Both the position numbers and the translations under genes were made by a program. From Impatiens glandulifera (taxonomy: Eukaryota > Streptophyta > Magnoliopsida > Ericales > Balsaminaceae): a stretch of DNA of 64,000 nt. Where the stretch lies: positions 128,101,641 to 128,165,640 of the forward strand of contig NC_061862.1 in the NCBI RefSeq assembly GCF_907164915.1, in the 5' to 3' direction. The notes under the pieces were generated by a model. The model ran no database searches, was not told where the DNA came from, and saw nothing but the letters and a program-made list of their open reading frames with translations. Position 1 is the stretch's first letter. The number at the start of each line of letters is the position of its first letter. Positions 20,866 through 58,549 of the stretch are shown here, in pieces.

Positions 20866-23352
20866 AACATGCGTGTTGAATCCCATACACCAAAGTTCAT
20901 AACTTCACAAGTGGTGAACTACGTAAGACCTGATCTCTCTCGAGAGTACGTAGGCAACCCATCCAGGGTGCGGTCACCACTACCAATTATCGAAAGAAGT
21001 TGATAAACATTTCATTTCACATAACATGCATTCATTGCTCATTACATACACCAAAGTTCATAACTTCAAAAGTTGTGAACTACGTCAGACCTGATCTCTC
21101 ACGAGAGTACGTAGGCAACCCATCCAGGGTGCGGTCACCACTATCAATTATCGACAGAAATTGATAGACATTTCGCATTACATGCATTCATTACACATAC
21201 ATCAAAGTTCATAACCCATAAGTTGTGAACTACGTCAAACCTGATCTCTCTCGAGAGTACGTAGGCAACCCATCTAGGGTGCGGTCACCTCTATCAATTA
21301 TCGACAGAAATTGATAGACATTTCGCATTACATGCATTCATTACACATACATCAAAGTTCATAACCTCATAAGTTGTGAACTACGTCAGATCTGATCTCT
21401 CTCGAGAGTACATAGGCAACTCATCCAGGGTGCGGTCACCACTATCAATTATCGACAGAAATTGATAGACATTTCGCATTACATGCATTCATTACACATA
21501 CATCAAAGTTCATAACCTCATAAGTTGTGAACTACGTCAGACCTGATCTCTCTCGAGAGTACGTAGGCAACTCATCCAGGGTGCGGTCACCACTATCAAT
21601 TATCGACAGAAATTGATAGACATTTCGCATTACATGCATTCATTACACATACATCAAAGTTCATAACCTCATAAGTTGTGAACTACGTCAGACCTGATCT
21701 CTCTCGAGAGTACGTAGGCAACTCATCCAGGGTGCGGTCACCACTATCAATTATCGACAGAAATTGATAGACATTTCGCATTACATGCATTCATTACACA
21801 TACATCAAAGTTCATAACCTTATAAGTTGTGAACTATGTTAGACCTGATCTCTCTCGAGAGTACGTAGGCAACCCATCCAGGGTGCGGTCACCACTATCA
21901 ATTATCGAAAGAAGTTGATAGACATTTCATTTCACATAACATGCATTCATTGCTCATTACATACACCAAAGTTCATAACTTCACAAGTGGTGAACTACGT
22001 AAGACCTGATCTCTCTCGAGAGTATGTAGGCAACCCATCCAGGGTGCAGTCACCACTATCAATTATCGAAAGAAGTTGATAGACATTTCATTTCACATAA
22101 CATGCATTCATTGCTCATTACACATACATCAAAGTTCATAACCTCATAAGCTGTGAACTATGTCAGACCTGATCTCTCTCGAGAGTACGTAGGCAACCCA
22201 TCCAGGGTGCGGTCACCATTATCAATTATCGACAGAAATTGATAGACATTTCGCATTACATGCATTCATTACATATACATCAAAGTTCATAACTTCACAA
22301 GTTGTGAACTACGTCAGACCTGATCTCTCTCGAGAGTACGTAGGCAACCCATCCAGGGTGCGGTCACCACTATAAATTATCGAAAGAAGTTGATAGACAT
22401 TTCACATTACATGTATTCATTACACATACATCAAAGTTCATAACATCACAAGTTGTGAACTACGTTAGACCTGATCTCTCTCGAGAGTACGTAGGCAACC
22501 CATCCAGGGTGCGGTCACCACTATCAATTATCGAAAGAAGTTGATAGACATTTCATTTCACATAACATACATTCATTGCTCATTACATACATCAAAGTTC
22601 ATAAATTCACAAGTTGTGAACTACGTGAGACCTGATCTCTCTCGAGAGTACGTAGTCAACCCATCCAGGGTGTAGTCACCACTGTCAATTATCGAAAGAA
22701 GTTGATAGACATTTCATTTCACATAACATGCATTCATTGCTCATTACACATACATCAAAGTTCATAACCTCATAAGCTGTGAACTATGTCAGACCTGATC
22801 CCTCTCGAGAGTACGTAGGCAACCCATCCAGGGTGCGGTCACCACTATCAATTATCGACAGAAATTGATAGACATTTCGCATTACATGCATTCATTACAT
22901 ATACATCAAAGTTCATAACTTCACAAGTTGTGAACTACGTCAGACCTGATCTCTCTCGAGAGTACGTAGGCAACCCATCCAGGGTGCGGTCACCACTATC
23001 AATTATCGAAAGAAGTTGATAGACATTTCACATTACATGTATTCATTACACATACATCAAAGTTCATAACATCACAAGTTGTGAACTACGTTAGACCTGA
23101 TCTCTCTCGAGAGTACGTAGGCAACCCATCCAGGGTGCGGTCACCACTATCAATTATCGAAAGAAGTTGATAGACATTTCATTTCACATAACATACATTC
23201 ATTGCTCATTACATACATCAAAGTTCATAACTTCACAAGTTGTGAACTACGTGAGACCTGATCTCTCTCGAGAGTACGTAGGCAACCCATCCAGGGTGCA
23301 GTCACCACTGTCAATTATCGAAAGAAGTTGATAGACATTTCATTTCACAACA
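20866..23352 (+). repeat. Tat satellite-like array 1 (150-162-bp monomer, about 16 copies)
   Basis: The landmark caaagttcata recurs 16 times from about 20891 to 23218, at spacings of about 150 or 160 bp. Each monomer has three segments able to fold: gttcataac/gttgtgaac, ctctc/gagag around a tcga centre, and tatcaatt/aattgata. The two monomer lengths come from a variable segment (cattacatgcattcattacac or catttcacataacatgcattcattgctc). Similarity between neighbours is very high. A diverged related segment at 23608-23670 (actacgttggacctgaa...acgtaggca...cggtcc) may be the single-copy ancestor. Tandem arrays upstream of the 3' LTR are known from Tat-lineage elements. Confidence 0.93.
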
Positions 23353-24736
23353 CATCGCATACATTCGATGCATATACATTAAAAAGGGAGTTAATCACAC
23401 TCTGAGTTGACTCCTAAACCAAAAACTCTTAGTCAATACTAGGGGCATTTTTATTAAAATAAAAATGACTACAAGATCCTCACAGAGTCCCACTTGAGAA
23501 AATATAACGCCCAAAGCTAAAGTATTTTTCTCTTCGACTTATGATCTCAAAAGATTTTCAAAACATTCACACATACACAAACATTTTTCACAAGCATGTG
23601 CATGGAACTACGTTGGACCTGAATTCCCCTAGCAATGGGATACGTAGGCAGCTTGTATGAGCCCGGTCCTAAACATTTTCAAAAATCAAACCCTGTATCG
23701 ACACTAGGGGCATTTTATGAAAATGAAATGATTGAAAGATCCCCAAAGAGTTAAAGCCAACGAGAAATTGGGATCACAAATCTATCCAAAACAATCAAAC
23801 CTCTTGTGTCGAAACTAGGGGCATTTGTGGAAGATAAAAAAAAAGATAGACCCCTGATTTTTTTCTAATGCCAAGCGAACTGATGAGAGAGTGCAAGAAA
23901 TAAGTAGGGATGCGGGAAAATACGTTTCTCCCCAATGGATGTCTCTTGACGAACTAATGTAACTTGTGGAATCCGAGTAAAGCGCTTCGCAAATGGATCT
24001 ACCTCGAGCCTAGACGAAAGCTTAAACTACTGATGTTTAAGAGAGAGCTCATAAAAAGATGAATGCCCAAACTCGGAACCATGTCATCAACAAAGACGAT
24101 GTCTCGTCTCAATTGGAGGTCAAGTGCCAAAGATCTAAGACCTCAAGAAAAGTAAAATCAATTAAACAAAGACTGTGTTGGTTGAGATATGAAATACAAT
24201 ATTGTTGTTCATTTAGATTCTATCTAATTGCTAAGAAAGAACAAAGTGTTTGAATCTATCAGATACACCCCGGTCATAAAGAAAAGAGGCCGAATAAAAT
24301 AGAAAAATACTCGTAGAGGTTGAGATATTGAAATCACCATTTGTTGTTCATCTAGACTCTTGTCTAAATTGCCAATGCAAGAACAAGAATCTACCGATTC
24401 TATTAAATATACCCTGAGTATAAAAGAGCCCAAGGCCATAGAATCTTAAGCACACTGACCTCCGAATTTGAGAAGCGATGCTCAACCTCATGACGCGTGG
24501 TTGAAAGATTAAGCATTCGAGCGAACAAATCCATCGAAAAACTCAGGGCAAAACGTCTTGGCGAAAGACAAGTCCCCAAAAGTGACAGCATGAATCTCGA
24601 AGAACATCGATTACATGTGGTTTCCTCTCGACACACACTAAGGAAGAAAGTATGGAACCGATTCTTGAAAGTATTTCAAAACCGTTGAAGAAGACGCTAG
24701 TGTTTTGAAAATTAAGGAAGTCTAACTTCGAACTTA
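23353..24736 (+). other. Tat noncoding region between the two arrays
   Basis: No convincing gene is seen. It holds several loosely repeated blocks with the landmark cactaggggcatttt (about 23437, 23707, 23815), and the monomer-like segment near 23608. At 24185-24430 there are diverged duplicates around gttgagatat-gaaa and gttgttcat-tagac. Confidence 0.6.
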
Positions 24737-26118
24737 AATCACTAAACAAAGTTGTGATTAAAAAGTATTTCGCTAAACTGACCAGCGATACTCAAATCCA
24801 TATAATCACTAAGCAGAATTGTGATTAAAAAGTATTTCGCTAAACTGACCAGCGGCACTTAAATCTATATAATCACTAAGTAGAATTGTGATTAAATAGT
24901 ATTTCGCTAAACTGACCACCAATACTTAAATCTATATAATCACTAAGCAGAATTGTGATTAAATAGTATTTCGCTAAATTGACCAGCGATACTCAAATCC
25001 ATATAATCACTAAGCAGAATTGTGATTAAAAAGTGTTTCGCTAAACTGACCAGCGGCACTTAAATCTATATAATCACTAAGCAGAATTGTGATTAAATAG
25101 TATTTTGCTAAACTGACCAGCGATACTTAAATCTATATAATCACTAAGCAGAATTGTGATTAAATAGTATTTCGCTAAACTGACCAGCGATACTCAAATA
25201 CATATAATCACTAAGCAGAATTGTGATTAAAAAGTGTTTCGCTAAACTAACCAGCGGCACTTAAATCTATATAATCACTAAGCAGAATTGTGATTAAATA
25301 GTATTCGCTAAACTGACCAGCAATACTTAAATCTATATAATCACTAAGCAGAATTGTGATAAAATAGTATTTCGCTAAATTTACCAGCGATACTCGAATC
25401 CATATAATCACTAAGCAGAATTGTGATTAAAAAGTGTTTCGCTAAACTGACCAGCGACACTTAAATCTATATAATCACTAAGCAGAATTGTGATTAAATA
25501 GTATTTCGCTAAACTGACCAGCGATACTTAAATCTATATAATCACTAAGCAGAATTGTGATTAAAAAGTGTTTCGCTAAACTGACCAGCGGCACTTAAAT
25601 CTATATAATCACTAAGCAGAATTGTGATTAAATAGTATTTCGCTAAACTGATCAGCGATACTTAAATCTATATAATCACTAAACAGAATTGTGATTAAAT
25701 AGTATTTCGCTAAACTGACCAGCGATACCTAAATCTATAATAATCACTAAGTAGAGTTGTGATTAAAGAGTATTTCGCTAAACTGACCAGCGATACTTAA
25801 ACCTATATAATCACTAAGCAGAATTGTGATTAAAAAGTGTTTCGCTAAACTGACCAGCGGCACTTAAATCTATATAATCACTAAGCAGAATTGTGATTAA
25901 ATAGTATTTCGCTAAACTGACCAACAATACCTAAATCTATAATAATCACTAAGTAGAGTTGTGATTAAATAGTATTTCGCTAAACTGACCAGCGATACTT
26001 AAACCTATATAATCACTAAGCAGAGTTGGGATTAAAAAGTGTTTCGCTAAACTGACCAGCGACACTTAAATCTATATAATCACTAAGTAGAATTGTGATT
26101 AAATAGTATTTCGCTAAA
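24737..26118 (+). repeat. Tat satellite-like array 2 (67-68-bp monomer, about 20 copies)
   Basis: Monomers begin aatcactaagcagaattgtgatt and continue with agtatttcgctaaactgaccagcgatact. Each can form two hairpins, aatcac/gtgatt and agta..cgct/agcg..tact. Two variants alternate irregularly: agta paired with tact and agtg paired with cact. Six of the seven cact monomers (near 25030, 25231, 25431, 25566, 25835 and 26037) carry the matching agtg. The one near 24830 does not. Confidence 0.93.
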
Positions 26119-26480: not shown

Positions 26481-29261
26481 TGTAGACACTCATTTTTCAC
26501 ACCAAATTTTATAGTTTATGCTTTTCATAAATCTGAGTCTATAAAATTTTCTCGAATTCATTCACGGACTCATTGCACGATTTATATTAAAGACGATTAA
26601 TTTTTAAAACAATTGAGTTTTTGAAAATAATTGATTTTGGATTCTTAATAAAGTTAAGGTAGTAATTTGTCTATGTTACAACAGTTAGAGAAGTTATTAT
26701 ACTTAAAATATTCAAGGTTTTATTTAATTAATTACCTTGGGTATTTATAAAAAATAAAAATTAAAAAAATTATTTACAAAATATATATTAGCGTTTTTTA
26801 TAAAATTTCGTTAGGTATATTTTGTTAGATTAGTTAGATTAGATTTTGCAATTTGATTAAGTTAGTTAGTATTTTATTATAATTATAATTGTTCCTTAGA
26901 AATAGGAATAATTAATAATAATACAATTGTTTTTTTTAATTGTTTGTTTTAATTTTATTTCTTTTGTAGGATAAAGGGAAATGGGTCAATCCAAGATCCA
27001 CATGCAAGATCCAGATCAGATTTGTGAATAGAGATAGGAAGATCCAAATCAAAGACATATCAACCCAAAGTAAGGCCAAGGAAAGGATCCAATTGACGGA
27101 TCCGACCGGTCACCCGACTAATAGACCGACCCATGCCCAAGATTCGACCCATGAAATCAAATGTTAAAAGAGTTAGGTGAAGGCAACGGTCATCTTATTG
27201 ATGGTGAAAATCACAAATCTTGAAATGACGATTCTATCATGTGCGGTCAAAAGAAAATAAAAAAAGTTGCTAAAAAAGAAGAGGAAGTGGCAAGAGAGAA
27301 AGTTTCAACGTAGAAGAAAAGATTGAAGACTTGGTTATTTTTTTAATTATAAAATTAAAATGACCAAGTAATACATCATTATTGAATAAAGATTAAATCC
27401 CATTGGATTGAAAACTTGATTTAGTGACATGTCAATTGGAGATTGCTCCATTATTTTAAACATTTGTAAATGTTTAAAATAGTTTTCTTTCCAACGGTCA
27501 AGTTTGTTAAATGGGCCTTTGGGCCTAGGGTTTCATAGCTTTGCCTATAAATACCCCTCTTAACACCCTAGCAAAGGAACTTCAACTTTCGACCTTCAAT
27601 CTTCACCTTCTTCTCTCTCTTTACACATTAGGCTGCCGAATTAGACCCTACTTTTCTAAAAAACCTAAGCAAGAGCACCAACTAGATTTGTTGAGTCACA
27701 AGTCTCTTGATTAGGGTTTTCATTTTTTTGCAAGGATATAAAGAGTAACCCTTTGTAAGCTCTTTTTCCTTTCTTTTGTTTATTTAAATTTGAATTTGAA
27801 TTTTACTTTCATTTGATTTTTATTTTCTTTGTACTTTATATTATGCATGATTTCCTTTAAATTTATTGTTTTGATAGGCGTGTAGGTTTTATTTATGTAC
27901 CTTAATCATGTAAATAAGTAGAATAGAAATAACATGTAAATAAATAAATAAAAAAACAGAAAAAGTTTTCAAAAACACTACCAAAATAAAAAAAATGTAA
28001 AATTTGCCTTATTTTGTATAGTTGATTTTTTTATTCTTTTAAGTAACTAGATCTAAGTTTTTTTTTATTTATATAAATGTTTAATTGTATTATTATAATT
28101 TTTCTGGAAAGTTTCATGTTAATTGGGATCCATTTGGATCACCAAATAATTTTTTTTTTAGCTAGGGATTAGGTGGAAAAACCAAAAAAACAGCAAGTTA
28201 TTCTACAAGGAGACGCATGTTATTCAGCCTTCCAGCACTTCTCCCAGGGTCTCGGCGCTTTCCAGACGACGCTTGCTCTGCTCCAGCTGCTGCTGAATCA
28301 GACTTCTGACGCACGCTTGCTGCAGTCTTCAACTTTTTTATTTTTTTTATTTGTTTATTTGTTTATTTTTTTTTATTTCTGCATTTTAGATTTAGGTTTA
28401 TTTTTTGTTGACATTTTTTTTTATTAGTTAAGAGTTTGTGGCTTGTTTGATCCTAGGTTAGAAAAAATTTTTTTTAATTAAATCCTAACTAAAATTGAAC
28501 TTAGCCCAAACTTAGACTTAGAATTTTCTTTAGACATATGACTTTTTTATTTTATTTTATTTTATTTATTATTATTTTATTATTTTATTATTATGTTCAT
28601 TATTATTTTTATTTAAATAAAAAAACTCCAAAATAGTAAAATTTTAGACCTTTAAATAATTCACTAAAGTTTCTTAAAAATTAATCTAGACTTAGGCCAA
28701 TTAATTTTTGATTAATAACTTGCCTAGTTTTGATTTTTAGGATAACTTTATGTGTGAATTATTTGCTCTCGTTTTCTTTTATCTTTGCTTATTTGTTTAT
28801 CTCATGCAAACTCATTAAATGCTTAAAATGGAAAATCCTAAAATGTAAAGCGTAAGAATGTTTTAAGAAATGCCAAATTAATTAGTAGAGACCTTAGGGG
28901 CGTTGTGGGACATAGCGTCTAAGAAACCCTTTCCCACACGTAACCAAACGCCGAACTCACATCTCTTAAATTCCTAATTTTTGAAATTAGGTGGCGACTC
29001 TCTAGTCGTGAGGTTAATTAATACTGAAAAAAGTTAAAAAAGGCCTATGACATACTTCCCATTAAAAAACTCCCAATCTCTCCCAGATTCGACGGGAAGG
29101 TAAGATATGGAGTTGTCTATAAAGCCTCGTTTTTAAAACTTAAATTTTTTCAACATTAAAATTAATTCCCCTCACGTTTTCAAAAAATAAATTTTTTAAA
29201 GAGTGCCCAGAATTTTCAAACTAGCTGATCAAAAGTCTTTTTTTTAAAAAAATCGATCACA
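26481..29261 (+). repeat. 3' LTR of the Tat element
   Basis: Nearly identical to 13281-16057, with the same TG start and ending gatcaca. The following bases accct repeat the left flank. Its TATA box is at 27546-27553. The short ORFs inside are not conserved coding sequence but translations of LTR DNA. Confidence 0.95.
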
Positions 29262-34200: not shown

Positions 34201-35256
34201 TGTTAGGATCGGGGACGCACTTGGAGGACCGGGGTGTTTCCGGTTTCAGAAAGGGTGGCCGCTTACAACAACACACAACACTTTGGTGATAGTCCAGTTA
34301 GAGACTATAACCGTTCTCAGCACTTCGCAAACTGTCACACACTCTTGAACCGGGTTCAAGGGCGGAAATGTATGTTTCAATCTAAAGCAACGTATGCGAC
34401 TTAGTTTTGATGAGATTAACAAGGAGTCGGTTAGATGGAGTGTATGAACCGGTTTTTGATTTAAGGAGTAAGATTGTTTTGGTTTGTGGTTAGGTTAAGT
34501 GAGTAAGTAGGAAAATAAAGGAAATAACACGAGACAAGATTTTTTATGGATGTTCGGAGAAAACCCTCCTACGTCACCCCTTCTTCTCAGGTTATGAGAA
34601 GGATCTCCACTAACTTTCAAAGTAACAACAATTCCACAGCCGGTCAAGCCTAACTCGCTACTCGCCGGTTACACCAACTAAGTCTTGATGTAATACAATA
34701 ACACAACACAACAATATGCAGATGCAGAGTCACGCCGTGGGATTGGTTAATTCAGAGTCACGCCGGTGCAGAGAGGTTGCTTACACTTGGCAAGCATGCA
34801 GATGCTCCTCAGGTGAAGATGACGTAGCCGGTTTGCAGATCCGAACACGTGTCAGGCATGCACCCTCCGGCTGTCGAAGTCGGATCAGTAAATCATCATT
34901 GTTTTTCTCGCATGCTTCTGATCGGATCTTATCTTCTTTTATTTCTCCAAGACACGTCTATTTCGTCATATTACGTCATCTCTGTAGATTTTAGTTTCCG
35001 GTTGACTCTTACATAGTATAGTCCAGCTGGGATGTAGACTTTTCTTTGCTAGCCGGTCCCTTGAGAATGTTGAAACTGGTTCCTCTTGATCTTGACTTGA
35101 TCACATAGAACTGAATTTCTTTGAAGTGTTCTTTAGCCGGTTTGTGAGGCTCCAGCCGGTTTATGCAATTCGATCTGTTTCCTACACATAGAAGTTAATA
35201 GTTGTTTAGTTTTTCTGGCCACTTCCAAAATTTAACTTTACTTAATTTTTCTATCA
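34201..35256 (-). repeat. 3' LTR of the Sirevirus element
   Basis: It runs from tgttaggatcgggg to ttctatca (1,056 bp). Compared with the 5' LTR it lacks about 130 bp after caacaat (near 34715) and about 20 bp near 34780. The first gap removes the region with the TATA box (47569-47577 in the partner). The imperfect palindrome cttgaaccgggttcaag lies at 34344-34360. Confidence 0.93.
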
Positions 35257-35440
35257 ATTTCTCCCTTTTTGATTATTTAGAATAAATATTCAAAACTTGT
35301 AATGTGTGGCCGGTTTGAAAATTAACTTACTTAATTTTTCTATCAATTTCTCCTTTTTTGATTATTTAGAATAAATATTCAAAACTTGTAATGTATGGCC
35401 GGTTTGAAAAATATGTTTGACAATTTCTCCTTATTTGATG
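35257..35440 (-). promoter_or_regulatory. Polypurine tract and two or three tandem copies
   Basis: On the minus strand AAAAAGGGAGAAAT abuts the 3' LTR (35257-35270). A block of about 90 bp follows twice (35247-35335 and 35336-35425), so the tract AAAAAAGGAGAAAT recurs at about 35345-35358, with a third variant near 35420. Multiple polypurine tracts upstream of the 3' LTR are a described trait of Sireviruses. Confidence 0.8.
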
Positions 35441-35493
35441 TTTTTCTGTTTAAGAAAAATTTCAAAAACATGTTTTGATTTTTCAAAGGATGT

Positions 35494-38489
35494 TCAGTGA
35501 ACTAAGTACTTTAAAGTATGATAAAGAGTGACTGAGTTCTGAAATAAAGCCAAACACAGATAAATTGTTCTTAAGAAAGAAATGAAACTAAGGTTTGAAA
35601 GGTCCCCCCTTTTCATTTTCTTTTTCCTTCCGCCTCCTTTCTTCTTCCCTTGCCTGTCATTCCCTTTCTCTTCGTTCAGCGTCGAATTGCCAACCGGTCC
35701 ATACACTTGAGATGCCGGGAGTTCGTTTGCCAAATCCAAAATCGCCACTTGCTGGTCTTGTTGGGCGAGACGGTTGAGCAACAATCGGTCTGGGAATTTC
35801 TACTGCTTTCTTCTTTCGCCGGTTGAGTTGTTTGATATCCTCTTCTTCTTCATCGTCAAGAGGTTCTTCGTTTAGTCCGACCGGTTGAATCTCTCCCAGA
35901 CCGCTTCGTTCTGCCAGCTTCATTACGGCCACAACCGCTTTCCGTTTGTTCTTATTTCTTGTCTTCATGGAGTGCGAGGGTTGAGCCGGTGTGGATTCTT
36001 GTAGAGCGGCATGTTCTTCCTCATCGCATTGCTTGGCAAACTCCAGATCTTTTTCCTCAAGTTCCTTCCTTAACCGTTCCCTCTCCTTTTCTTCGTCTTG
36101 AAGTTTCTTTGTAGTTTCGGCATCAGAATTGATTTGCACTTGACTTTTGTTGACTTGAAGTTTGGACAGCTCCTCAATTTGAGCGGCCATAGCCTGCAAC
36201 ATGTCGATTAAAGGAGCGGTTGCGGTTTGAACGGATTCGGCGATTATTGATTTGATTGAGGTTTGCATGGTTTCATCTATCATCGACTTGATCAATGTTT
36301 GGGCGGTGTTGACAGTTTCGGATTGAATGGATCCCCGGATAGTTTCTGTCATGTTGGTTTCAACGGTTGCAATTTTCTCATCGGTAGCAATATTGTACTT
36401 GTGAAGACAGGAGATGATTGTATCAACCACCACTTGCTTTACTTGCTCAAGATCCGGAGTCTTATCTGTTTGAGGAGGATCACTGCTCCGGTTTTCTGCT
36501 GTCATGGAGGACTCTCCGATACCAAAGAAGGGTTTGCTTTGGTAGAGGTTGGCAAAAGTTAAGACATGTTTGCACTTTTCCTTCCATTATGCTTCGAACC
36601 GGTCAACACTTTTAATGAGTCTATCACGCACTAGGTGAAACCGCTCAAACATTCTTGATTCGATTGGAGTTAAAGTTGCTCCTTCTGCCTACCTTAATAC
36701 ATCTTCTACTGCATGTAACCGGGCGTATTCGAGAATCGCCAAGGTTTTGCTGAATGCGGCTTGAATGACGTTGGTACCTGGTAGCTTGAGAGCCTCTTCC
36801 TCTAGCTCCAATAGTTTCTCACAGTGTTTGTTACCGCTCATATCGGGGATCATGCCTGATAGGTTTGTTTCACAACGAAGCTTGACCCATAAGTGGTACG
36901 GTGAGACCAACTCTCCAGCATCCTTGTTCATATCCAGGAGGAGTTGCTCAAACATCTCCTCCTCTTCTTCTGCTGAAATGAGGACCTCGGCTTCGGTTAC
37001 AATCTCAGTTTGTGAACCGGTTTGCATAACACTTTTTCCCTTTACCGCAGAATCCTTAAGTAAAACTTCTTTCCCTTTATTAACCTGAATTGGACCTTCA
37101 GGTGTGAAAGTTGAATCAGCTGGCCCGTCTTGGGCCGATCGGAGCGTTGTGTCGGTTGGAACAGACTTGTTCCCCGCCGAACCGGATGGTTCTTTTTCTT
37201 CAATATTTTCCTCCTATGCCGGAGGGGTGATGTTCTCAGTTTTGGCCGTTTCTTCGACCAGATGGGTTTCACTCTGACCGGGTATCTCAACCTGATCAAC
37301 TAGCTTAAGAAGATTTGTCACGTCGTCTTCGGTTTCAATAACAGTGATTTGGACCGCGTCCATTATAACCTTTGAGGTTCTTAAACCTACTTCAAGCATT
37401 TATCTCATCGAGTTTCTTGTTAGGGGACTTGGAGTTTTCAGAGTGAATACTAACCTCTTCTTCCTCCTTCGATGTTGACTTAGTTTCTTGGCTCCCTGAG
37501 GGTTCGGCTTGCCTTGATGGTGGAGAGTCGACTGGAATGGGATGAACCGTGTTGATGGGAGTGGGCTGAAGGATGTCTGCGGTTCTCTTTGGCGAATTGT
37601 CCGAGGAAAGAGTTTTCTCGGAATCTGTCGGTTTGTTTGAGCTCTTCTTTGCGGATGTCTTCTTCCTCCCCTTTTTCTTCTGAGAGGCCTCGGCTTGAAC
37701 CGCCTTCCCCTTGGGATCTTCTTGTTTCGAACTTTCTCCAGCCGGTGCAGATGAGCTGGTTCCCTTTGATGACTTCGTTCTAGAGGACTTCGGCTTAGCC
37801 GCTTTGGCAGTCTTCTTACTCATTTGCTCAGAGTTAAGAATATTAGCGGATGGAAGCGGTTCACCTTCACCAAGTTCCACATTAAGGAACTTAAGAATTT
37901 TCACGATTTGCATTGCGAAGGCCTGAACCCGGCCGTCCTTCTTCACTACCATTTCGCAGAACTGTTCGAACAGAACGGTTCCCCAGTCTATCTTGTCACC
38001 GCGGACAATCACCATCATCATTTTCAACTTCAGTTTTATCAGGTTATCGAAGTTGCCTCCTCTACCCTGAAGTGATCTGGAGACTATGTTCAGTAACCAT
38101 CTGAACTCCTGCTTAAGTTTGTTCTCCTGGCTTGAGTGAGTCACCAGATCTTTGTCGTCAGCCGATATCACCAACCGGACCGCGTTGGATTCTGCGTCTG
38201 TCAGGCTTGTTTTGAAGTCCAGCCCGGTATTCGGCAAACCGAGTGCTTCAGAAAAGAGCTCCTCCGTGATGTTAACCGTGGCGGAGACCGTCCTTTTCGT
38301 TAAAGTCGCCGTCGCCAAAAACTCCATTACTTCCGTCGGGTGCACAATGAACGGACCAGATAAATATGTTTCCAATCCTGAATCCCTTAGTGATTGCAGC
38401 ACGGCCTTGTTCTCCTCTGCGACGTGTTCGTCGATGTCGTTAAAATCGACCTGTAACATGTATTGAAAGGGTGCTTTGACTAGAGCCAT
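35494..38489 (-). pseudogene. Extra gene C of the Sirevirus: LPTEG-family protein with long coiled-coil tail
   Basis: The start is most likely the ATG at 38489 (MALVKAPFQYMLQVD), 110 nt after a TATA box. The N-terminal domain of about 230 residues matches genes A and B (SGLETYLSG, EVMEFLATA, ELFSEALGLPNTG, then IDWGTVLFEQF). A Ser/Lys/Pro-rich disordered linker follows. After a frame change near 37400 the sequence continues in one frame to 35657 (EDDVTNLLKLVDQVE, EEEMFEQLLLDMNK, then a Glu/Lys-rich coiled coil around 36000-36200). That frame has in-frame stops at about 37214, 36689 and 36588. A final frame change near 35700 leads to a very basic end (GKKKGGGRKKKMKRG). Function is unknown. It is a broken version of a protein of about 990 residues. 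Confidence 0.65.
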
Positions 38490-38597
38490 GATGAATTTGT
38501 GAAAGAGGAAGATGAAGAACAACGATGATCGGAAGTCAGAGAGATTTTTAATATTTTTAGAGAGAGAAAGCTTGTGCAAATAATGAACTGTTTTGCA

Positions 38598-38607
38598 CTT
38601 ATATAGG
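38598..38607 (-). promoter_or_regulatory. TATA box upstream of extra gene C
   Basis: CCTATATAAG on the minus strand lies 110 nt before the ATG at 38489. The leader between is pyrimidine-rich (TTTCTCTCTCTAA) and shares TTCTCTCTCTAA with the leader of gene B. It looks like an ordinary plant RNA polymerase II promoter, inside a retrotransposon. Confidence 0.6.
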
Positions 38608-38899
38608 AGGCGGTTTTTAACGGTTGGAAGATGAACCGTCACTTGGTTGTGTTTTTGGCGCCAATTTTCCCTCCAAAAGTTACTGCAGTAACTTTCGGCG
38701 GTAAATGCGGAGAATACAATGGGCGGTAATTTTTGTGCGCGGTAAAACCGTGAGCGGTAAGTTTTTCAAACTTTTTCAGTTTTGTTTGAGGTTTTGATTT
38801 ACCGGAGGCTTGTTAACCGGAAGTTTCGTTTAACATGGAGTCTTATGTTTATTCAAGTCAAAACCGGAAAGAAAGATATTGTGTATAACCGGAGATTTT

Positions 38900-39112
38900 T
38901 TTTCTTTTTTTTTTAAAAAAATGAGAAATTTTTATTAATAAATCCGAAACATAGAGTAATGAAGTGGTTTTTCGGTCATACAGCAAAATGAAGGGAAAGA
39001 AGTTTTACTTGAGGATGAATAACCGGAGAGATTTTTTTTTAAATGAGAAAATTTTATTAATAAATCCGAAACATAGAATAATGAAGTGGTTTTTCGGTCG
39101 TACAGCAAAATG
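38900..39112 (-). repeat. Tandem duplicate of a 3'-UTR-like segment with A tracts
   Basis: Two copies of about 70 bp (38923-38993 and 39041-39112) share cgaaacatagaataatgaag and gtttttcggtc. On the minus strand each has TTATTAATAAAA, then TTCTCATTT, then a run of 9 or more A. This is downstream of gene B and resembles a polyadenylation signal followed by an A tract. Confidence 0.75.
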
Positions 39113-39139
39113 ACTAGAAAATCGGAAAGTACAGATAGA

Positions 39140-39901
39140 TTAAACTAGATCGAACCAATCCCCCTCGATCATTCTAACAAGCCATTTCGTCACGGTGTTA
39201 TCAGGTGTCCGTTCCTCAATCCTCGATATCCATCTATCTAGCATGGATAGAGTCAGAGTGTTGGCCGGTCCGACAGGAACACCAGGCCCGAGGTTGCGGC
39301 GATGATCTTCCAAGAATCGAGTGATTTGTGGAGCAAAACCGATCCTTCCCCTTGGAGTGGTTATAAGCTGCTTCAAATTGTTGAAGAGGTGGGAAGCCCA
39401 GTTGATGGGTGATTTTCGGATGATGGCTATCATGATGTCGAAAGCCTCTAGGTTATAATTTTGGTTGGGCATTCGGCCCATGATAGACCGCTGAACCAAG
39501 TCATGAAAGACTTGGTATTGAGGAGCGAGTTTTTCTTTCTTCTCGTGGTCGGCGACCGGTTCAATGGAAGAGGAGAAGATATGGGCGTAGTCTTCCTTAG
39601 CCGGGAAGAATGGCGTTGGGAAGTCTGAGAATCCTTCGGTTGGAAGGTCAAAGAATAGAGTAAAGTGTTCTTCGGTAAGCCGAAGAAATTTCCCGTCAAT
39701 GATGGTCCAAATACTACCATCATTAATAATATGCCCGTTGTTGAAGAACTCGTACACCTCCTCTTCGAGGATGGTGTCTGAACCTTCAAGAAATTCTTGA
39801 AGCCCCGATTCTACGATCGGTTGGAAGATGCTTTCATGAAACCGGCCATTTCTTATTTCTTGGAAGTTGACTATGATTGAGTTTCGTAGTTCAGCATTCA
39901 T
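39140..39901 (-). CDS. Extra gene B of the Sirevirus: LPTEG-family protein (about 253 aa)
   Basis: The ATG at 39901 (MNAELRNSIIVNFQEI) is preferred over an in-frame upstream ATG at 40078, because a TATA box at 40006-40014 lies between them. The frame is intact. Key blocks are SGLQEFLEGSD, EEEVYEFFNNG, TEEHFTLFFDLPTEGFSDFP, QYQVFHDLVQRSIMGR, PINWASHLFNNLKQLI and IGFAPQITRFLEDH. The spacing matches gene A and the N-terminus of gene C. No signal peptide or membrane segment is seen. The protein is predicted helical and soluble. I recall similar sequences among uncharacterised Gesneriaceae predictions, without known function. Confidence 0.72.
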   Translation of the reverse strand: MNAELRNSIIVNFQEIRNGRFHESIFQPIVESGLQEFLEGSDTILEEEVYEFFNNGHIINDGSIWTIIDGKFLRLTEEHFTLFFDLPTEGFSDFPTPFFPAKEDYAHIFSSSIEPVADHEKKEKLAPQYQVFHDLVQRSIMGRMPNQNYNLEAFDIMIAIIRKSPINWASHLFNNLKQLITTPRGRIGFAPQITRFLEDHRRNLGPGVPVGPANTLTLSMLDRWISRIEERTPDNTVTKWLVRMIEGDWFDLV

Positions 39902-40005
39902 TTTGGATAAGAATGAGATTGATGATCGAAAAGAGTTCTTTGAATTTTCAAGCTTAGAGAGAGAATAGTATAGGAAGCGTGTTTGAAGAGGAAGGATTAG
40001 GTCCT

Positions 40006-40014
40006 CTTTTATAG
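40006..40014 (-). promoter_or_regulatory. TATA box upstream of extra gene B
   Basis: CTATAAAAG on the minus strand lies about 105 nt before the ATG at 39901. The leader contains CTATTCTCTCTCTAAGC and GATCATCAATC, similar in content and order to the leader of gene C. Confidence 0.6.
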
Positions 40015-40339
40015 CGTGAGCGGTTGGGTGTATTAAATGAGAATATTTTGAAAAATCAGACCGTTTATGTCTGGTCATAAATGCCTTGTCATTTTTTAAG
40101 AGGATAAGGGTATGTTTAGTCTTTTCGGATCAGGCATTCTTCTTGAAAGCGAATATTTCTGTTTCCAAGAGTGATTTGATTTGGTTTGATACGACGCATT
40201 TAATGTTGGTCATTTACTTTAGGATTTCTTTGATTTTTGAACGAAAGAGGAAAGAAATGATCTTCATTAATGCAAAGTACTAAACCGGTAGTACAACAAA
40301 ATTACCGGTTTATGAAAGGATAAAGGAGATGAGGAAGAG

Positions 40340-41101
40340 TTAAACATTTGATGACCCGACCGCTTGATTCCTCTTGGCCTTAGTTGTTTCCCACCGGTCA
40401 ATCAGCTCTTGGATTCTCTCCTTCGTGAGCACATGCTTCGGATGGAGAGTGACGAAGGGTTCAGAGTGGATATCCAGGCTAGCACAAAAACCGCTTAGCT
40501 GAGGAGCGTAGCCGGTTTTGTTTGAAAGAATCATCTTCTTCAGGTTGCTGAAGATGATCCAGGACCAGTTTACCAGTGTCCCAACCGTAACAGCAATCAT
40601 CATCTCGAAGAGCCTTTGGGTGTAGTAGTAGCCTTTCTCTCTGCCCAGAACAGACTTTCCCAGAATCTCACAAAGAAGCTGGTACTTGTGAGAGAGTTGG
40701 ATTTTAGCACTCCAGGGTCTAACCGGGATGTCAGAGTTGGAGAACCGATGACACATTTCTTCAATGGTCACCGGAGAGTAGGTTAGATCGGTTACCCCTT
40801 CAGTGGGCAAACCGCAGTATTCAGCGAAATTTGTCTCGCTGAATAAAAAGGACTGACCGTAAACACGTGCAACGATTATGTCTCGGTGCACTTCCTTTGC
40901 GGTCTGGAAGAATTCATCGACTACTAGGTAGTCGAGGATGAATCTGTTTTCCAGAAATTCTCTTAGCCTGCTTCTTTCAACGGCTAAGAACATTTCTTTG
41001 ACATCGTGATCTTCGTATTGATAGATCGAGTTGAAATCAGCCAAGAGAATTTTCTTTGCTAGTGGGTCGGAGTTCATGTTCTTGAGGTGATTTGAGCTCA
41101 A
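40340..41101 (-). CDS. Extra gene A of the Sirevirus: LPTEG-family protein (253 or 245 aa)
   Basis: The open frame is intact. ATG codons at 41101 and 41077 are both possible; the TATA box at 41157-41165 gives a very short leader for the first, so the second (MNSDPLAKKILLADFNS) may be used. Blocks shared with gene B are SRLREFLENRF, VDEFFQTAKE, SETNFAEYCGLPTEGVTDL, KYQLLCEILGKSVLGR, LVNWSWIIFSNLKKMIL and GYAPQLSGFC. The C-terminus has HPKHVLTKERIQELIDRWE, similar in position to LDRWISRIEERT of gene B. No membrane segment is seen. Function is unknown. It is the gene closest to pol, in the place of the env-like ORF of other Sireviruses, but it does not look like an envelope protein. Confidence 0.72.
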   Translation of the reverse strand: MSSNHLKNMNSDPLAKKILLADFNSIYQYEDHDVKEMFLAVERSRLREFLENRFILDYLVVDEFFQTAKEVHRDIIVARVYGQSFLFSETNFAEYCGLPTEGVTDLTYSPVTIEEMCHRFSNSDIPVRPWSAKIQLSHKYQLLCEILGKSVLGREKGYYYTQRLFEMMIAVTVGTLVNWSWIIFSNLKKMILSNKTGYAPQLSGFCASLDIHSEPFVTLHPKHVLTKERIQELIDRWETTKAKRNQAVGSSNV

Positions 41102-41156
41102 GATAGTTTTTGTGAATAGTAAATTTTGTGAAGAGTTGTGAGGATTTGAGGGTGGT

Positions 41157-41165
41157 TTATATAGC
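41157..41165 (-). promoter_or_regulatory. TATA box upstream of extra gene A
   Basis: CTATATAAA on the minus strand, 56 or 80 nt before the two candidate ATG codons, followed by a C/A-rich leader. It is the third TATA box placed directly upstream of an extra gene in this element. Confidence 0.6.
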
Positions 41166-41792
41166 CAGGGGTTCGGCTAGATCAATAGGTTAAGCATGCT
41201 TAGTGATGTCATCAATTAGTTAATAGGCTTTAACTTGTTGAAGTGTATAATGTTTATTTCCAATGCAAATGTAATTATTACTAAGATATTCATGAAGACA
41301 AAAATCTGTTGACAAGATGTGAGTCTCCCTCTCTTGATGATGGACACATGTCGTCATCTCAATTGAGGTAAACTATTTTATTAATTACAGGCTTCATTTC
41401 TCAAGGTATGCATGAAAACGCGGATAGCTATCTCAAGTTAACCAGAAAAGTTCAATCCATCGAAACCAGAGTGTATTTGTACTAATCGGTTTTCCATGAC
41501 CGGTTTTAGTTTGATATTTTATTCCGATTATGAAGAAATGTTGAGACATATCAACGTATGTTTAGATTTGGATTAAGTATATCCACTTCTACCAGGTCAT
41601 TTCGACTGTGTAGTAAATATACACGTGATTTGACATCATGAAGTGATCAGGCATAACCGGAGACTTCCTCCCAGTTAGCATTCTTGAATTTTCAATGGCC
41701 TATTTGAATATGGTTTTAGAAGCGAGAGCTTCTCCCTGAACACATATCCCGGTTTTTCATAATTGTTATATGTAAGTAGTATGCATGCATGA
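41166..41792 (-). other. Sirevirus intergenic region between RNase H and extra gene A
   Basis: About 630 bp with no ORF of note. It contains several AACCGG/CCGGTT hexamers like those in the LTRs. It would hold any further upstream promoter elements of gene A. Nothing else is recognised. Confidence 0.45.
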
Positions 41793-44700
41793 TCATGAAA
41801 TAAGTTGCTTAACATCGGTAATTCCTAGAATATTTCTGAAATGAGAAAACTTAGCTTCCTGTAGCGGTTTGGTGAAGATGTCTGTTACTTGTTGCTCAGT
41901 TGAGACATATTCCAACCGGATATGTTTCTCCTGAACATGCTCCCGGATGTAATGGTGTCGTATATCAATGTGCTTCGTTCTTGAGTGCAACACCGGATTG
42001 TATGTAATCGCTATCGCGTTGGTGTTGTCACAAAATATTGGTGATTCCTTAGCTACTACGCCAAAGTCCCTTAGTTGTTGTTGGATCCAGAGTAGTTGTG
42101 CACAGCAGCTTCCGGCTGCTATATACTCTGCCTCTGCGGTTGATGTTGCGATTGAGGTCTGTTTCTTGCTGCTCCAATTAACTAGTCGGTCACCCAGGAA
42201 TTGGCAGGTTCCACTTGTACTCTTTCTATCGATTTTGCATCTTGCGTAATCCGCGTCTGAGTAGCTTATGAGATTGAAACTTGAGTATTTTGGATACCAA
42301 GTCCCACTTCTTGAGTTCCCTTCAGATATTTTAATATTCTTTTGGCCGCAGTGTAATGTGATTGCTTTGGATTGACTTGGAATCTCCCGCATACTCCAAC
42401 CGCAAACAAGATGTCCGGTCGGCTGGCTGTTATGTAAAGCAGGGATCCAATCATTCCCCGATATGTTGTGATGTCAACGGCTTGACCATCCTCATCTTTG
42501 TCTAACTTTACGGAAGGACTCATTGGTGTAGCCGCCTCGGCGCATGTATCCATTCCAAACTTCTTCAGTAGTTCGGCTGTGTACTTTGGTTGACTTATGA
42601 ACGTTCCGGCTGCAATCTGCTTAACCTGAAGTCCTAGGATGAAACTCAGTTCTCCCATCATACTCATTTGAAATTTGTCAGTCATCATTTTTGAGAATTT
42701 ATCACATAGTTTTGGATCGGTTGATCCGAAAATAATATCATCGACATATATTTGAACAAGTAATATGTGTTCCTTTTCTTCAAATTTGAAAAGTGTTTTG
42801 TCAACTGAACCTATTGTAAATTTGTGATCAAATAAGAATTGTGTTAACGTATCGTACTAGGCTCTTAGAGCCTGTTTCAAACTGTAAAGGGCTTTGTTCA
42901 GCTGGTAAACATGATTTTCGTGTTCTGGATTTTTGAAACCTGGAGGTTGATTAACATATACCTCCTCATTTACCTTACCGTTTAGAAAAGCACTTTTAAC
43001 ATCCATTTGAAAAACTTTGAAACTTTTGAAAGTTGCATATGCTAAAAATATTCTAATGGCCTCAAGTCTAGCTACAGGGGCAAATGATTCTTCAAAATCA
43101 ACGCCTTCTTCCTGTTTGTAGACTTGAGCCACTAACCGGGCTTTGTTCCTCGTAACTAAACCGTCTTCATTGAGTTTATTTCTGAATACCCATCGTGTTC
43201 CTATAACCGGTTTATTTTTCGGTCTAGAGACTAGGTACCAGACTTTATTTCTCTCAAACTCGTTTAATTCCTCTTGCATTGCTAGGATCCAATCGGGATC
43301 TGAAAGTGCTTCATCCACCTTTCGGCTTAATTTATGATATGAAAGCGGAGATTTCATAGTGTTCCAAATTTTGTTGCCTAGTTCGGACGGGTGAGGATAG
43401 TTTACCTATTACTAGTTCAGGAGGATGATTTTGGTTCCTTTTGAGGTTTATCCGAGATGTGTCTATCAGGCTTTCGGTTAGCTGGTCAAGGTTAGACTGA
43501 TCGGTAGGCTGAACAGAGTCAGACCGACCTATTTCTTCAGTCGAAACTGAAGAGTCAACTTTCTGCGGTAAAGCATCTTGAGCAGGCTGAGGTTCAGCAT
43601 CAACCGCTTGGTCATTGACAAATTGTCTAAAAACCGGAACCTTGTCTTCATCATCATAATAGATATTGAAATTTTCCATTCTGTTGTGAAGGTCGAAGGG
43701 TAAAGCAGTGTTTCGTTCAACCGATTCATCAAAAACAACGTGGGCTGTTTCTTCAACTGTTAAATTCCTAGTATTATATATCCTATAAGCTTTACTTACA
43801 GCTGAATATCCCAACATTATTCCCTCATCGGATTTAACATCAAAAGCGGTCAAATAATTTTTTCCGTTGTTGTGAACAAAACATTTACTACCAAAAATTC
43901 GAAAATACCGTATGTTTGGAATTTGATCATAGTATATTTCAAAAGGAGTTTTGGAAAATCGTTTAGGTACTAAGGATCGGTTTTGAGTGTAACATGCGGT
44001 ATTGATAGCCTCAGCCCAAAACTTTTGAGCGATACCCGAATCGGCTATCATTGACCTTGCAGCTTCCTTGAGAGTTCGGTTTCTTCTCTCAGCCAGGCCG
44101 TTTTGTTGAGGAGTTCTGGCACTAGACAACTCGTGTCTAATACCGGAATCATCAAGAAAAGTAGTTAATCTGTTATTTATAAACTCAGTTACTCTATCAC
44201 TTCTGATTTTGTTTACTCGAATGGATTTTTCATTTTGTATTCTCAAAATCAATTTGATCAAGTTTGGAGTTGCTTGGTTTTTAGAGGCTAGAAATGTTAC
44301 CCAAGTGAACTTAGAATAATCATCAATAACTACCATAGTATAATGCATGCCTCCTAGACTGGTTACTCTAACCGGACCAAACAGATTCATATGCAAAAGT
44401 TCTAAGCACCATTCAAATTGATAATTTCCTTTACTTTTGAAGGATGATTTTATTTGTTTACCCATTTGACATGCAGCATATACTTTATCTTTTGAAAACT
44501 TAACATTTGGAAAACCGTAAACTAGTTCTTTGGAACATATAAAGTTAATTGTTTTGAAATTCAGATTGTTTAGCCGTTTATGCCAAAGCCAGTTTGGATC
44601 ATTTCCAGCTATCATGCATACAGGTTTTTCAAAATCAGTTTTCCAATTAACTTTGTAAATATTTCTCATTCGGTTACCGGTCAAAAGAATGTCATTTTGA

Positions 44701-45056
44701 TGATTCTTAACTAAACATGCATTCTTATGAAATTCAACTTTATAACATACATCGCACATTTGACTTATGCTTAATAGGTTAAAATGCAAGTGTTCTACCA
44801 GTAATACTTTATTTATGGATAGATTACCATGGACAATCTTACCCTTGCCCACGGTTTTACCTTTCGAGTTGTCACCGAATGTTATTACTGCTCCGGTTTC
44901 AAACTTGATGTCGGTTAGTAGTTCATCATTACCGGTCATGTGTCTTGAGCATCCGCTGTCCAGATACCATTCCGAGTTCTTTAGCCGGTTGCTTCTCCTA
45001 ACCTGCAAAAGAAAGTTATTTACACCTTTTTGGTACCCACATTCAGTTGGTTCCAT
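41793..45056 (-). pseudogene. pol: Sirevirus pol (protease, integrase, RT, RNase H)
   Basis: The frame opens at the ATG at 45056, 14 nt before the gag TGA and six nt after a TAA in its own frame. Protease shows WYLDSGCSRHMTGN. The integrase zinc region is damaged (LNNLNF in place of an expected His; YAACQ). The first catalytic Asp is Asn (LLHMNLFGP, about 44380), while IRSDRVTEF and NGLAERRNR keep the other two. RT contains [44 protein letters not shown] and the active site YVDDII (about 42735-42750). RNase H ends SKHFRNILG-like at 41793. Frame changes near 43335, 42850 and 42300 break it. It would replicate and integrate the element. Confidence 0.9.
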
Positions 45057-46904
45057 GGTTGATTAGTCCCTTTGGGATCCAAACTTGGATAAGTCGGATC
45101 ACTTTCCCGGTATCTGTTCTTATAATGTTTGGCTTAACTTCTTGATCTTTGCTCAAGAATGCCTTATGTTGTGGTGATGAGTGTCTTTGAGACCTAGATT
45201 TACTTGTTTTATTTTGTTTATTTTCTTTCCGGTTAGCTTTCCTTCTCTCAGGATGAAGCCAGTTTTCTTATTCAGTCGGACCTACATATTTCAGTTCTTT
45301 TTCCGGTTTTAGATCATGTGCTTCCTCATTTTCGGTTGATGAACTCTTGATAAATCTTATGAATGGAAGATTGTCTTTTGTGAGTTTCATCCCGTTAGGT
45401 TGTTTTGATTCGTTTTGTTTATTTTGTTCATAACCGATACCAAATCTACATTTAGGGTGTCTTTTATAATTACACATCTGTTTTACGGCTAGACGAGATC
45501 TCTCCCATGCAGCCGTAACATACAATGCTCGTTCATCAGTTTCAGTTACCGGTTGAATTGTCTCTTCATTATCTAAGGATAGTTCATCCGATTCATACAT
45601 TGCGGTTTCGCATGACTTGTCTGCAATACCACTTGACTCTACGGTTTTAGGTTCTACCGGAGTCGGTATGTATGCAGATATGTTTCTGAACTCAACGACC
45701 ATTTCGTTGAGTCCAGAAATCAAATCTTCCTTAGTAAACTCGTCAGAAGAGAAATCAAATACCTCTTCGTCGTTTGCCATGAAGCATGTCACTTTTTCTT
45801 CATTATCTTCGTTGTCGGAGTACGCCCATTCGCTTCCACCGTCGGATGCAATGAGTGCTTTCTGTATTTCCTTCCCTTCGTCGGCATGCTTCTCGTCGTT
45901 TCTCTGGTAGTCGTTCCGTATGTTGTCATTTCTCCGATAGTTGTTCCCTTGGTAGTTGTTACCCTGGTACCGGTTACCTTGATAGTTGTTGCCTTGATAG
46001 TTGCCTTCCGGTTTTCTGTCGTCTCTTCTCGGTTTCCTACACTCTGACCTGAAATGTCCAAAACCATCACAGTTATAATATCTTTTATTTGATTTATCTA
46101 CATAATTATAGCTAAAGTTGTTGTTAGATGGTGGCTGGTTCTTCTTCATGAATCTCCCAAATTTCTGAGCTAGCATCGCCATCACATCTTCACTGATCTG
46201 ATCAGCGTTTTTGACTGGAGCCGGAACGGTTGATACTTGGACCGTCGGTTCCACCGATGTAATCAAAGCTCTGGTTGCGGTTGACGTGGATGCTTCATCT
46301 TTGATCCGAGACTTAATCTCGAACTCATAAGCTTTTAGATCCTCAAACACGTCATGCAACTTCATCTGCCCGAGGTTGCTTGATTCTCTCATCACCATGG
46401 TTTTGATATCCCATGTGCTCGGCAGTGATCTTAAGGCTTTAATGATTACTTCTCGGTTATCGTATTTCTTTCCGAGTGTCGGAAACTCGTTGACCACACT
46501 GGTGAACCGGTTGCTGAATTCCTTCATATTTTCCCCCGGTTTCATCCTTATGTTTTCATATTTCTGTGTAGCCACCAAGATTTTGTTCTTTCGTTTCCTT
46601 CATGAATCTGAATGATCGTTTCTCAGGCTTCCTTTGCATTATCACAGGCTGATATCTTGTTCAAGGTATTATCGTCTATAGCCTTATAGATGTGCCTCAT
46701 GCAATGGTTGTCCAGGTTACTCCGTCTTCGATCTTTAGTTGTCCATTCGTCTAACTACTTGTTGATCTTGATTGGCCCTTCTTTCAGGACTCGGCTCGTC
46801 TCATCATCTAGCGTGATCAGATGTAGATACATCTGTTTCTTCCAACTGTTAAACGCTTCACTGTTTAGCATTGGCGGCTTGTCGCTGTGGGTCATGCTTT
46901 CCAT
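45043..46904 (-). pseudogene. gag: Sirevirus gag
   Basis: The ATG at 46904 (MESMTHSDKPPML) follows the primer site. In order: N-terminal capsid-like region (LNSEAFNSWKKQMYLHL), a TGA in AK*A*ETII near 46625, a deletion of about 10 nt near 46590 that shifts frame, then 436 open codons with MKPGENMKEFSNRF and LRSLPSTWDIK. The zinc knuckle has Tyr for the first Cys (YYNCDGFGHFRSEC). It is followed by at least four YQGNN-type repeats, an acidic segment and the conserved C-terminus with a TAA in GPTE*ENWLHPERR. The frame ends at the TGA at 45043. It would assemble the particle around the RNA; this copy cannot make it whole. Confidence 0.88.
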
Positions 46905-46931
46905 CTTCTTCGGTTGTTTGAGTGCTAAGAA

Positions 46932-46947
46932 CCTCGCTCTGATACCA
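46932..46947 (-). promoter_or_regulatory. Primer-binding site of the Sirevirus (initiator tRNA-Met)
   Basis: TGGTATCAGAGCGAGG on the minus strand, two bases after the 5' LTR end. It fits plant initiator tRNA-Met better than copy 1 does. Confidence 0.92.
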
Positions 46948-46949
46948 CT

Positions 46950-48151
46950 TGTTAGGATCGGGGACGCCCTTGGAGGACCGGGGTGTTTCCGGTTTCAGGA
47001 AGGGTGGCCGCTTACAACAACACACAACACTTTGGTGATAGTCCGGTTAGAGACTATAACCGTTCTCAAAACTTTGCAAACTGTCACAGACTCTTGAACC
47101 GGGTTCAAGGGCGGAAATGTTTGTTTCAGTCTGAAGCAACGTATGCGACTTAGTTTTGATAAGATTAACAAGGAGTCTCTTTAATGGAGTGTATGAACCG
47201 GTTTTTGATTTAAGGAGTAAGATTGTTTTGGTTTGTGGTTAGGTTAAGTGAGTAAGAAGAAAAAATAAAGGAAATAACACGAGACAAGATTTTTTATGGA
47301 TGTTCAGAGCAAACCCTCCTACGTCACCCCTTCTTCTCAGGTTATGAGAAGGATCTCCACTAACTTTCAAAGTAACAACAATTCCACAGCCGGTCGAGCC
47401 TAACTCGCTACTCGCCGGTTACACCAACTCACTCTTGATGTAATACAATAACACAACACAACAATAATAGCTCTCGGTAAATGACACAACGGTTTTGGAT
47501 TGCGCGTGAGATTTCTTTATCTCTCTAAGATTTTCGTAACTTGTTATTAATGAGGTCGCTTCGTCTTCCTTTTATAGTGAAGATGATCCCAACGGTCACT
47601 TTCGTCTCTCACCGTGGGATTGGTTAATTCAGAGTCACGTCGATGCAGAGAGGTTGCTTGCACGTTTCAACTTCCTAACACTTGGCAAGCATGCAGATGC
47701 TCCTCAGGTAAAGATGACGTAGCCGGTTTGCATATTCAAACACGTGTCAGGCATGCACCCTCCGGCTGTCGAAGTCGGATCAGTAAATCATCATTGTTTT
47801 TCTCGCATGCTTCTGATCGGATCTTATCTTCTTTTATTTCTCCGAGACACGTCTATTTCGTCATATTACGTCATCTCTGTAGATTTTAGTTTCCGGTTGA
47901 CTCTTACATAGTATAGTCCGACTGGGATGTAGACTTTTCTTTGTTAGTCGGTCCCTTGAGAATGTTGAAACCGGTTCCTCTTGATCTTGACTTGATCACT
48001 TTGAACTGAATATCTTTGAAGTGTTCTTTAGCCGGTTTGTGAGGCTCCAGCCGGTTTATGCAATTCGATATGTTTCCTGCACATAAAAGTTAATAGTTGT
48101 TTAGTTTTTCTGGCCGCTTCCAAAAATTAACTTTACTTAATTTTTCTATCA
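46950..48151 (-). repeat. 5' LTR of the Sirevirus element
   Basis: It is 1,202 bp, with TG...CA ends (tgttaggatcgggg to ttctatca). The TATA box CTATAAAAG is at 47569-47577 on the minus strand. A 17-bp palindromic core cttgaaccgggttcaag is at 47093-47109. This LTR keeps about 150 bp missing from the 3' LTR. Its outer end abuts the target duplication gtgat. Confidence 0.94.
47569..47577 (-). promoter_or_regulatory. TATA box of the Sirevirus 5' LTR
   Basis: CTATAAAAG on the minus strand, about 620 bp upstream of the LTR/primer-site junction. The same region is deleted from the 3' LTR. Confidence 0.65.
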
Positions 48152-56529: not shown

Positions 56530-56540
56530 TCTGATACCAA
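56530..56540 (-). promoter_or_regulatory. Copia 3 primer-binding site
   Basis: TGGTATCAGAG on the minus strand, one base after the 5' LTR end; initiator tRNA-Met type. Confidence 0.9.
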
Positions 56541-56541
56541 T

Positions 56542-58514: not shown

Positions 58515-58549
58515 TAATCCTCCTTCTTTTATAATTATTAATATCTTTT

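Follow-up and report, generated by a model that had tools for sequence, protein, structure and literature searches.

Three TATA-fronted paralogous genes with a predicted VANC21-like fold in a Ty1/copia retrotransposon of Impatiens glandulifera: candidate anti-silencing factors

The transposons that encode VANC proteins are enriched in a short motif; these proteins bind it and bring about methylation loss (PMC5735166). For the long terminal repeat (LTR) retrotransposons of plants, the role of additional or "envelope-like" genes has been called unknown or controversial (PMC7264820, PMC3414828), and the function of the repeated motifs of Sireviruses has been called unconfirmed (PMC2829016). The same study describes 13 Sireviruses with a family-specific repeated motif in their LTRs, 12 of them with a CGG-CCG core; copies in the linker between pol and the 3' LTR are confined to the nine elements that have an ENV gene, and 77 of these 79 copies lie upstream of ENV (PMC2829016). 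A coupling of this kind would be expected of an env-like protein that reads the motif, an inference that is ours and not the paper's. Additional open reading frames (ORFs), an internal promoter and the PF20167 domain in a retrotransposon are each already known. Here we describe a Ty1/copia element in a 64,000-nucleotide stretch of Impatiens glandulifera DNA (GCF_907164915.1, contig NC_061862.1, positions 128,101,641 to 128,165,640; hereafter the window), whose linker contains three related genes, A, B and C (Table 1). Our tentative reading, to which we give somewhat less than an even chance, is that these TATA-fronted paralogues share a predicted VANC21 fold and bind the hexamer AACCGG throughout the element, averting silencing methylation. 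The direct observations beneath it are the paralogy, the placement of the TATA boxes, the excess of the hexamer and its borders, and the structural match of one model (A).

All three genes are in the sense orientation of the element. The initial annotation had described them as relatives sharing ordered blocks, and their homology is borne out by BLASTP (A/B, E 2e-27 with 64 of 223 residues identical; B/C, E 2e-18; A/C, E 9e-13; each E-value is for a single comparison) and by 27 invariant columns in the three-way alignment. The frame proposed for gene A at 40340-41101 is present, but 41101 is a TTG and the first ATG lies at 41077; the uninterrupted frame of B at 39140-39901 is confirmed and begins at an ATG. 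Gene C, like gag and pol, is interrupted: past 37400 its frame resumes only via a frameshift, and three in-frame stops precede position 35657, where ORF E ends. C has a long basic tail and resembles the one env-like gene classically found in such elements, and A and B look like domain-only relatives of it. Protein searches confirmed relatives for 1 of 123, 4 of 7589 and 4 of 4329 candidates, only four proteins, all from Impatiens glandulifera. One related protein, P0003, continues beyond the point at which C is broken (compared by eye). Another, P0001, has the annotation of a pleiotropic drug resistance transporter but carries a B-like tail; the final quarter of B is 64% identical to this tail, and B ends where the P0001 gene model ends. 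P0001 is apparently a chimera between an ABC transporter and a member of this element family. Pattern searches of viral contigs gave 8 and 184 matches, none of which was confirmed.

Nonsynonymous divergence (dN) among A, B and C is 0.74-0.95, and synonymous divergence (dS) is saturated. In every pairwise comparison the second codon position is the most conserved and the third the least, so the divergence took place while they were working protein genes. Neutral simulation at 0.4 substitutions per site left a stop-free frame in at most 0.25% of runs. The data support a linker with three paralogues in tandem, preceded by promoter-like sites and retained as protein genes during their divergence. 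Of the earlier proposal that whole units were acquired and duplicated inside the element, the paralogy and the divergence as protein genes hold; acquisition fits the GC content at third codon positions (0.52-0.56 in A, B and C; 0.32 in pol, 0.44 in gag and 0.43 in E), a contrast with pol that is compatible with capture without proving it.

In the 6.5-kb linker (35257-41792), the only sense-strand matches to the pattern TATAWAD are the three before A, B and C. The abundance of this pattern is unremarkable, with 9 sense-strand matches in the element (one in the 5' LTR, five in gag-pol, three in the linker; shuffle mean 6.3) and 4 on the antisense strand. Its placement is remarkable: the probability that three random boxes serve all three ATGs is 7.5e-6, a value based on a pattern and a distance range (60-130 nt) that were chosen after the data were seen. 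A box 56-110 nt upstream of each gene had been reported; the boxes are there, but at 86, 112 and 116 nt from the ATGs. Leader motifs said to be common to B and C amount at best to weak similarity (best local score 27 versus a shuffle mean of 20.3, P 0.06), and local alignment found no similarity of the A leader to either. Downstream of B, both copies of an 89-bp repeat (38910-39120) have an AATAAA followed by an A-run, and they read like a duplicated polyadenylated 3' end.

The initial annotation had treated the encoded protein as unknown, and two partial identifications can now be given, one by sequence and one by structure. Both B (22.2 bits) and the N-terminal part of C (C-N; 15.7 bits) align across most of the PF20167 (Transposase_32) profile without reaching its gathering cutoff of 45 bits, and A has no match, suggesting a weak, distant relationship of B and C-N to PF20167 and no formal membership. 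The predicted structure of A, a single model, matches VANC21, and the domain common to A, B and C is predicted to share the VANC21 fold. No sequence similarity of the three proteins to VANC21 was found, and neither DUF1985 nor DUF287, the domains of VANC proteins, gave a Pfam match in A, B or C-N up to E 10.

AACCGG/CCGGTT is the most over-represented hexamer of the element by z-score (62 versus 4.7 expected). Elsewhere in the window it occurs 0-4 times in each of six segments outside the element and a second, truncated copy of the family at 1-4584, in which it is again the top hexamer (11 versus 1.2 expected). Its density is 8.5 and 10.0 per kb in the LTRs and 2.4-6.2 per kb in the rest of the element, and it is present in all four linker gaps. 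Perfect 8-base palindromes make up 6 of the 89 CCGG sites, and the AACCGG motifs are mostly non-palindromic. Only two sites are common to both copies, of 15 and 10 (79% identity), and control hexamers behave similarly (10 of 55 and 59), so individual sites turn over while the density stays high. Such a pattern would be expected from selection on the number of sites and not on their position, or from a biased process that generates them. GCATGC (10 versus 1.3 expected) and CATGCA (17 versus 4.7 expected) are also enriched in the element; the latter is similar to the RY element recognised by B3 factors of seeds. Near the end of the window, at 56001-64000, the related hexamer AACCGA is strongly enriched (30 versus 4.2 expected, 27 of them past 60 kb) and AACCGG is absent; this cluster may be a simple repeat, or a further element that has its own variant of the motif.

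The hexamer excess could be independent of A, B and C, reflecting a host transcription factor site or the effect of biased mutation or of gene conversion, comparable to the unexplained motifs of Sirevirus LTRs. We consider this unlikely, though it is the best placed of the alternatives. The motif is densest in the LTRs, with 12 occurrences in the 5' LTR, including some upstream of the LTR TATA box, and such motifs are similar to stress-related plant sites (PMC2829016). However, ACCGG/CCGGT exceeded the mean of synonymous-codon shuffles in 6 of 6 tested coding frames (gag, integrase and linker genes), with P <0.02 in 3 of the 6, and a promoter site would not need that.

Under the anti-silencing reading, each TATA box would start its own short mRNA, also at times of weak LTR promoter activity. 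The proteins would enter the nucleus and bind AACCGG, and binding would remove DNA methylation, as VANC21 does for VANDAL21; three divergent copies could share out this work by timing or by motif variant. Action outside the particle would then be that of a nuclear DNA-binding anti-silencing factor. Somewhat less probable, in our view, than a hexamer excess unrelated to the three genes are other nuclear accessory roles (RNA export, import of the integration complex or target-site choice), such as have been suggested for additional ORFs, among them Grande gene23. The additional ORF of Grande is nuclear, with a promoter of its own (PMC7264820), and basic stretches are present in C (KKKGRKKTSAKK) and in E; such roles, however, predict no DNA motif repeated throughout the element.

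A late env-like or movement-type function with no role at chromatin, in which the VANC21 match would reflect a fold common to plant transposon proteins, is improbable. Transmembrane and coiled-coil domains are common to the ENV-like genes of Sireviruses according to the MASiVEdb text, which gives an internal promoter and suppression of a stop codon as ways in which they are expressed (PMC3414828). By a crude test, the highest 19-residue Kyte-Doolittle mean, A has one moderately hydrophobic stretch that is borderline for a membrane segment (1.56). That stretch falls within the conserved domain, however, and the values for B (0.75), C (1.17), the middle piece (0.86) and E (0.87) are all below 1.2. 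Env-like function also leaves the AACCGG excess and the VANC21 match unexplained.

The initial annotation had further proposed that selection keeps A and B open in an element whose gag and pol are broken. Stops and frameshifts do break both gag and pol, but the inference of selection did not hold up for this copy. Substitutions alone, at half the LTR Kimura two-parameter (K2P) distance of 0.048, leave A and B stop-free in 51% and 56% of simulations, respectively. Gag-pol has 6-8 breaks in 5.1 kb (two possibly the natural gag-pol boundary) and C-E has 4 in 2.8 kb; at this rate about 2 breaks are expected in A and B together, and finding none has a P of about 0.1 by our own count and arithmetic. 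The open frames of this copy are not strong evidence of selection. The second copy (1-4584) is 77% identical to 42861-47454 and likewise broken; any A/B/C region of it would fall outside the window edge. Three gag-pol pieces compared between the copies give a dN/dS of 0.15-0.18, indicating that gag-pol of this family has been under purifying selection. That A, B and C are decaying relics, functionless in any recent copy, with TATA boxes and open frames left from captured genes, is very improbable: C, gag and pol are broken and chance openness of A and B is plausible, but the long divergence under coding-type constraint, the dN/dS between the copies and the related proteins of Impatiens glandulifera all speak against it.

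Table 1 Features of the element in window coordinates
Feature	Position	Strand	Basis or remark
Ty1/copia LTR retrotransposon	34201..48151	-	LTR ends TG..CA, flanks, LTR alignment; gag, integrase and reverse transcriptase domains
5' LTR, 1202 bp	46950..48151	-	TATA box at LTR position 576
Primer binding site TGGTATCAGAGC	46936..46947	-	two bases past 5' LTR; junction read as CA/AGTGGTATCAGAGC
gag region, interrupted, Retrotran_gag_2	45063..46904	-	PF14223 1.6e-11 in piece 45268-46599; frames
pol region, interrupted	41793..45062	-	integrase and reverse transcriptase recognised by rve, RVT_2; frames
TATA box TATATAAA	41156..41163	-	86 nt upstream of A ATG
Gene A, 245 aa from ATG, open	40340..41077	-	frames, BLASTP; predicted-structure model matches VANC21
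TATA box TATAAAAG	40006..40013	-	112 nt upstream of B ATG
Gene B, 253 aa, open, ATG start	39140..39901	-	PF20167 1.5e-4; C-terminus also in Impatiens glandulifera protein
89-bp direct repeat, two copies 89% alike	38910..39120	-	between B and C
TATA box TATATAAG	38598..38605	-	116 nt upstream of C ATG
Gene C, N-terminal part (C-N)	37395..38489	-	PF20167-like domain, then basic Ser/Lys-rich tail; broken beyond
Rest of C, single frame with three in-frame stops	35657..37399	-	ORF E (35657-36505) is the final open piece
Purine tract AAAAAGGGAGAAAT	35257..35270	-	adjoins 3' LTR; within 89-bp tandem repeat (35238-35415)
3' LTR, 1056 bp	34201..35256	-	K2P 0.048 to 5' LTR; TATA-box segment lost
62 AACCGG/CCGGTT motifs	34201..48151	.	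dispersed through element, densest in LTRs; single-strand count compared with shuffles

The element is a full-length but decayed Ty1/copia copy, bordered at both ends (34201 and 48151) by the 5-bp duplication GTGAT. Its LTRs differ at 49 of 1056 aligned sites, and the TATA-box segment is absent from the 3' LTR via a complex deletion (34716-34735 versus 47466-47612). Several features agree with those described for Sireviruses. The junction of the 5' LTR and the primer binding site, CA/AGTGGTATCAGAGC, conforms to the CA/A(T or G)TGG TATCAGAGC of the Sirevirus definition (PMC2829016), a TATA box lies near the middle of the LTR (position 576 of 1202), as in that definition, and the long linker has sense genes. 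The definition also includes a polypurine octamer located 10 bp upstream of the 3' LTR, AGGGGGAG or its variant with A for the last G, in several identical copies (PMC2829016). Neither form is present anywhere in the element, where the terminal tract is AAAAAGGGAGAAAT, and because of this we do not file the element as a Sirevirus. For the inverted repeat around the terminal polypurine tract, the best local match scores 17 and no arm borders the tract; this repeat is also missing from 3 elements of the published set (PMC2829016). The definition further names a high-copy CGG-CCG motif in the LTR and upstream of the ENV-like gene (PMC2829016); the hexamer of the present element occupies the 5' LTR and every linker gap but is mostly non-palindromic. 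Sirevirus gag has multiple zf-CCHC motifs according to MASiVEdb (PMC3414828); here one sub-cutoff match (E 0.049) lies in piece 45268-46599 of a gag that is itself interrupted. Placement in the SIRE lineage goes by clustering of reverse transcriptase and integrase with SIRE references (PMC6317226). A reverse transcriptase scan of viral contigs gave no confirmed match, in collections that contained no plant reference elements. Elsewhere in the window, a 2.8-kb direct repeat (13281-16057 and 26481-29261, 97.9% identical) flanks tandem arrays at 20884-23365 and 24737-26118.

A broader and more doubtful proposal is that plant copia elements have their own VANC-type system, in which envelope-like genes would encode motif-binding anti-silencing factors and the family-specific CCG/CGG repeats of Sirevirus LTRs and linkers would be their sites; in the present element, triplicated, self-promoted and diverged genes would mark its whole length via AACCGG. 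Should the domain prove to be a DNA reader of VANC type, envelope-like genes and Sirevirus repeated motifs would have one answer, sequence-specific anti-silencing encoded by transposons would extend from DNA transposons to retrotransposons, and new sequence-directed demethylation domains would be on offer. The initial annotation knew of no triplicated, self-promoted set. We found none in our searches of open-licence papers either, nor an element-wide hexamer, in searches not aimed at a triplicated set or at AACCGG; the self-promoted additional ORF alone is not new, given Grande gene23. The same searches yielded no PF20167-like genes in a copia element and no VANC-like fold in a retrotransposon.

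The locus resembles VANC21/VANDAL21 of Arabidopsis in the predicted fold of A, in the pairing of a protein family encoded by a transposon with a short motif enriched in that transposon, and in relatives that diverge fast and have differing motifs (PMC5735166, PMC10398659). However, VANDALs are DNA transposons (MULEs, Mutator-like elements) that have a VANC gene and whose motifs lie in non-coding tandem repeats, whereas this is an LTR retrotransposon with three genes and a dispersed motif that also occurs in coding DNA. The 3' additional ORF of sunflower Athila (PF20167, "putative plant transposon protein") likewise sits between pol and the 3' LTR, but Athila is Ty3/gypsy with one such ORF (PMC11728184), in contrast to the three genes of this Ty1/copia element, with their sub-cutoff scores and A unmatched. 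Grande gene23 is likewise an extra gene in an unusually long 3' region, with its own promoter demonstrated where we have just TATA boxes, yet it is antisense, single and Ty3/gypsy (PMC7264820, PMC11963269); here the genes are sense, three and Ty1/copia. The Sirevirus ENV-like gene and SIRE eORF-3'F are comparable in arrangement, with sense genes in a long copia linker, a long charged tail as in C, and a CCG/CGG-cored motif repeated in LTR and linker (PMC3414828, PMC6317226). The ENV-like gene is described as one, whereas three occur here, without the polypurine octamer and with no hydrophobic segment apparent in C or E. AACCGG resembles the Sirevirus repeated motifs in its high copy number, CCG/CGG core, family specificity and presence in LTR and linker, and departs from those longer palindromes in being a mostly non-palindromic hexamer that also runs throughout gag and pol (PMC2829016).

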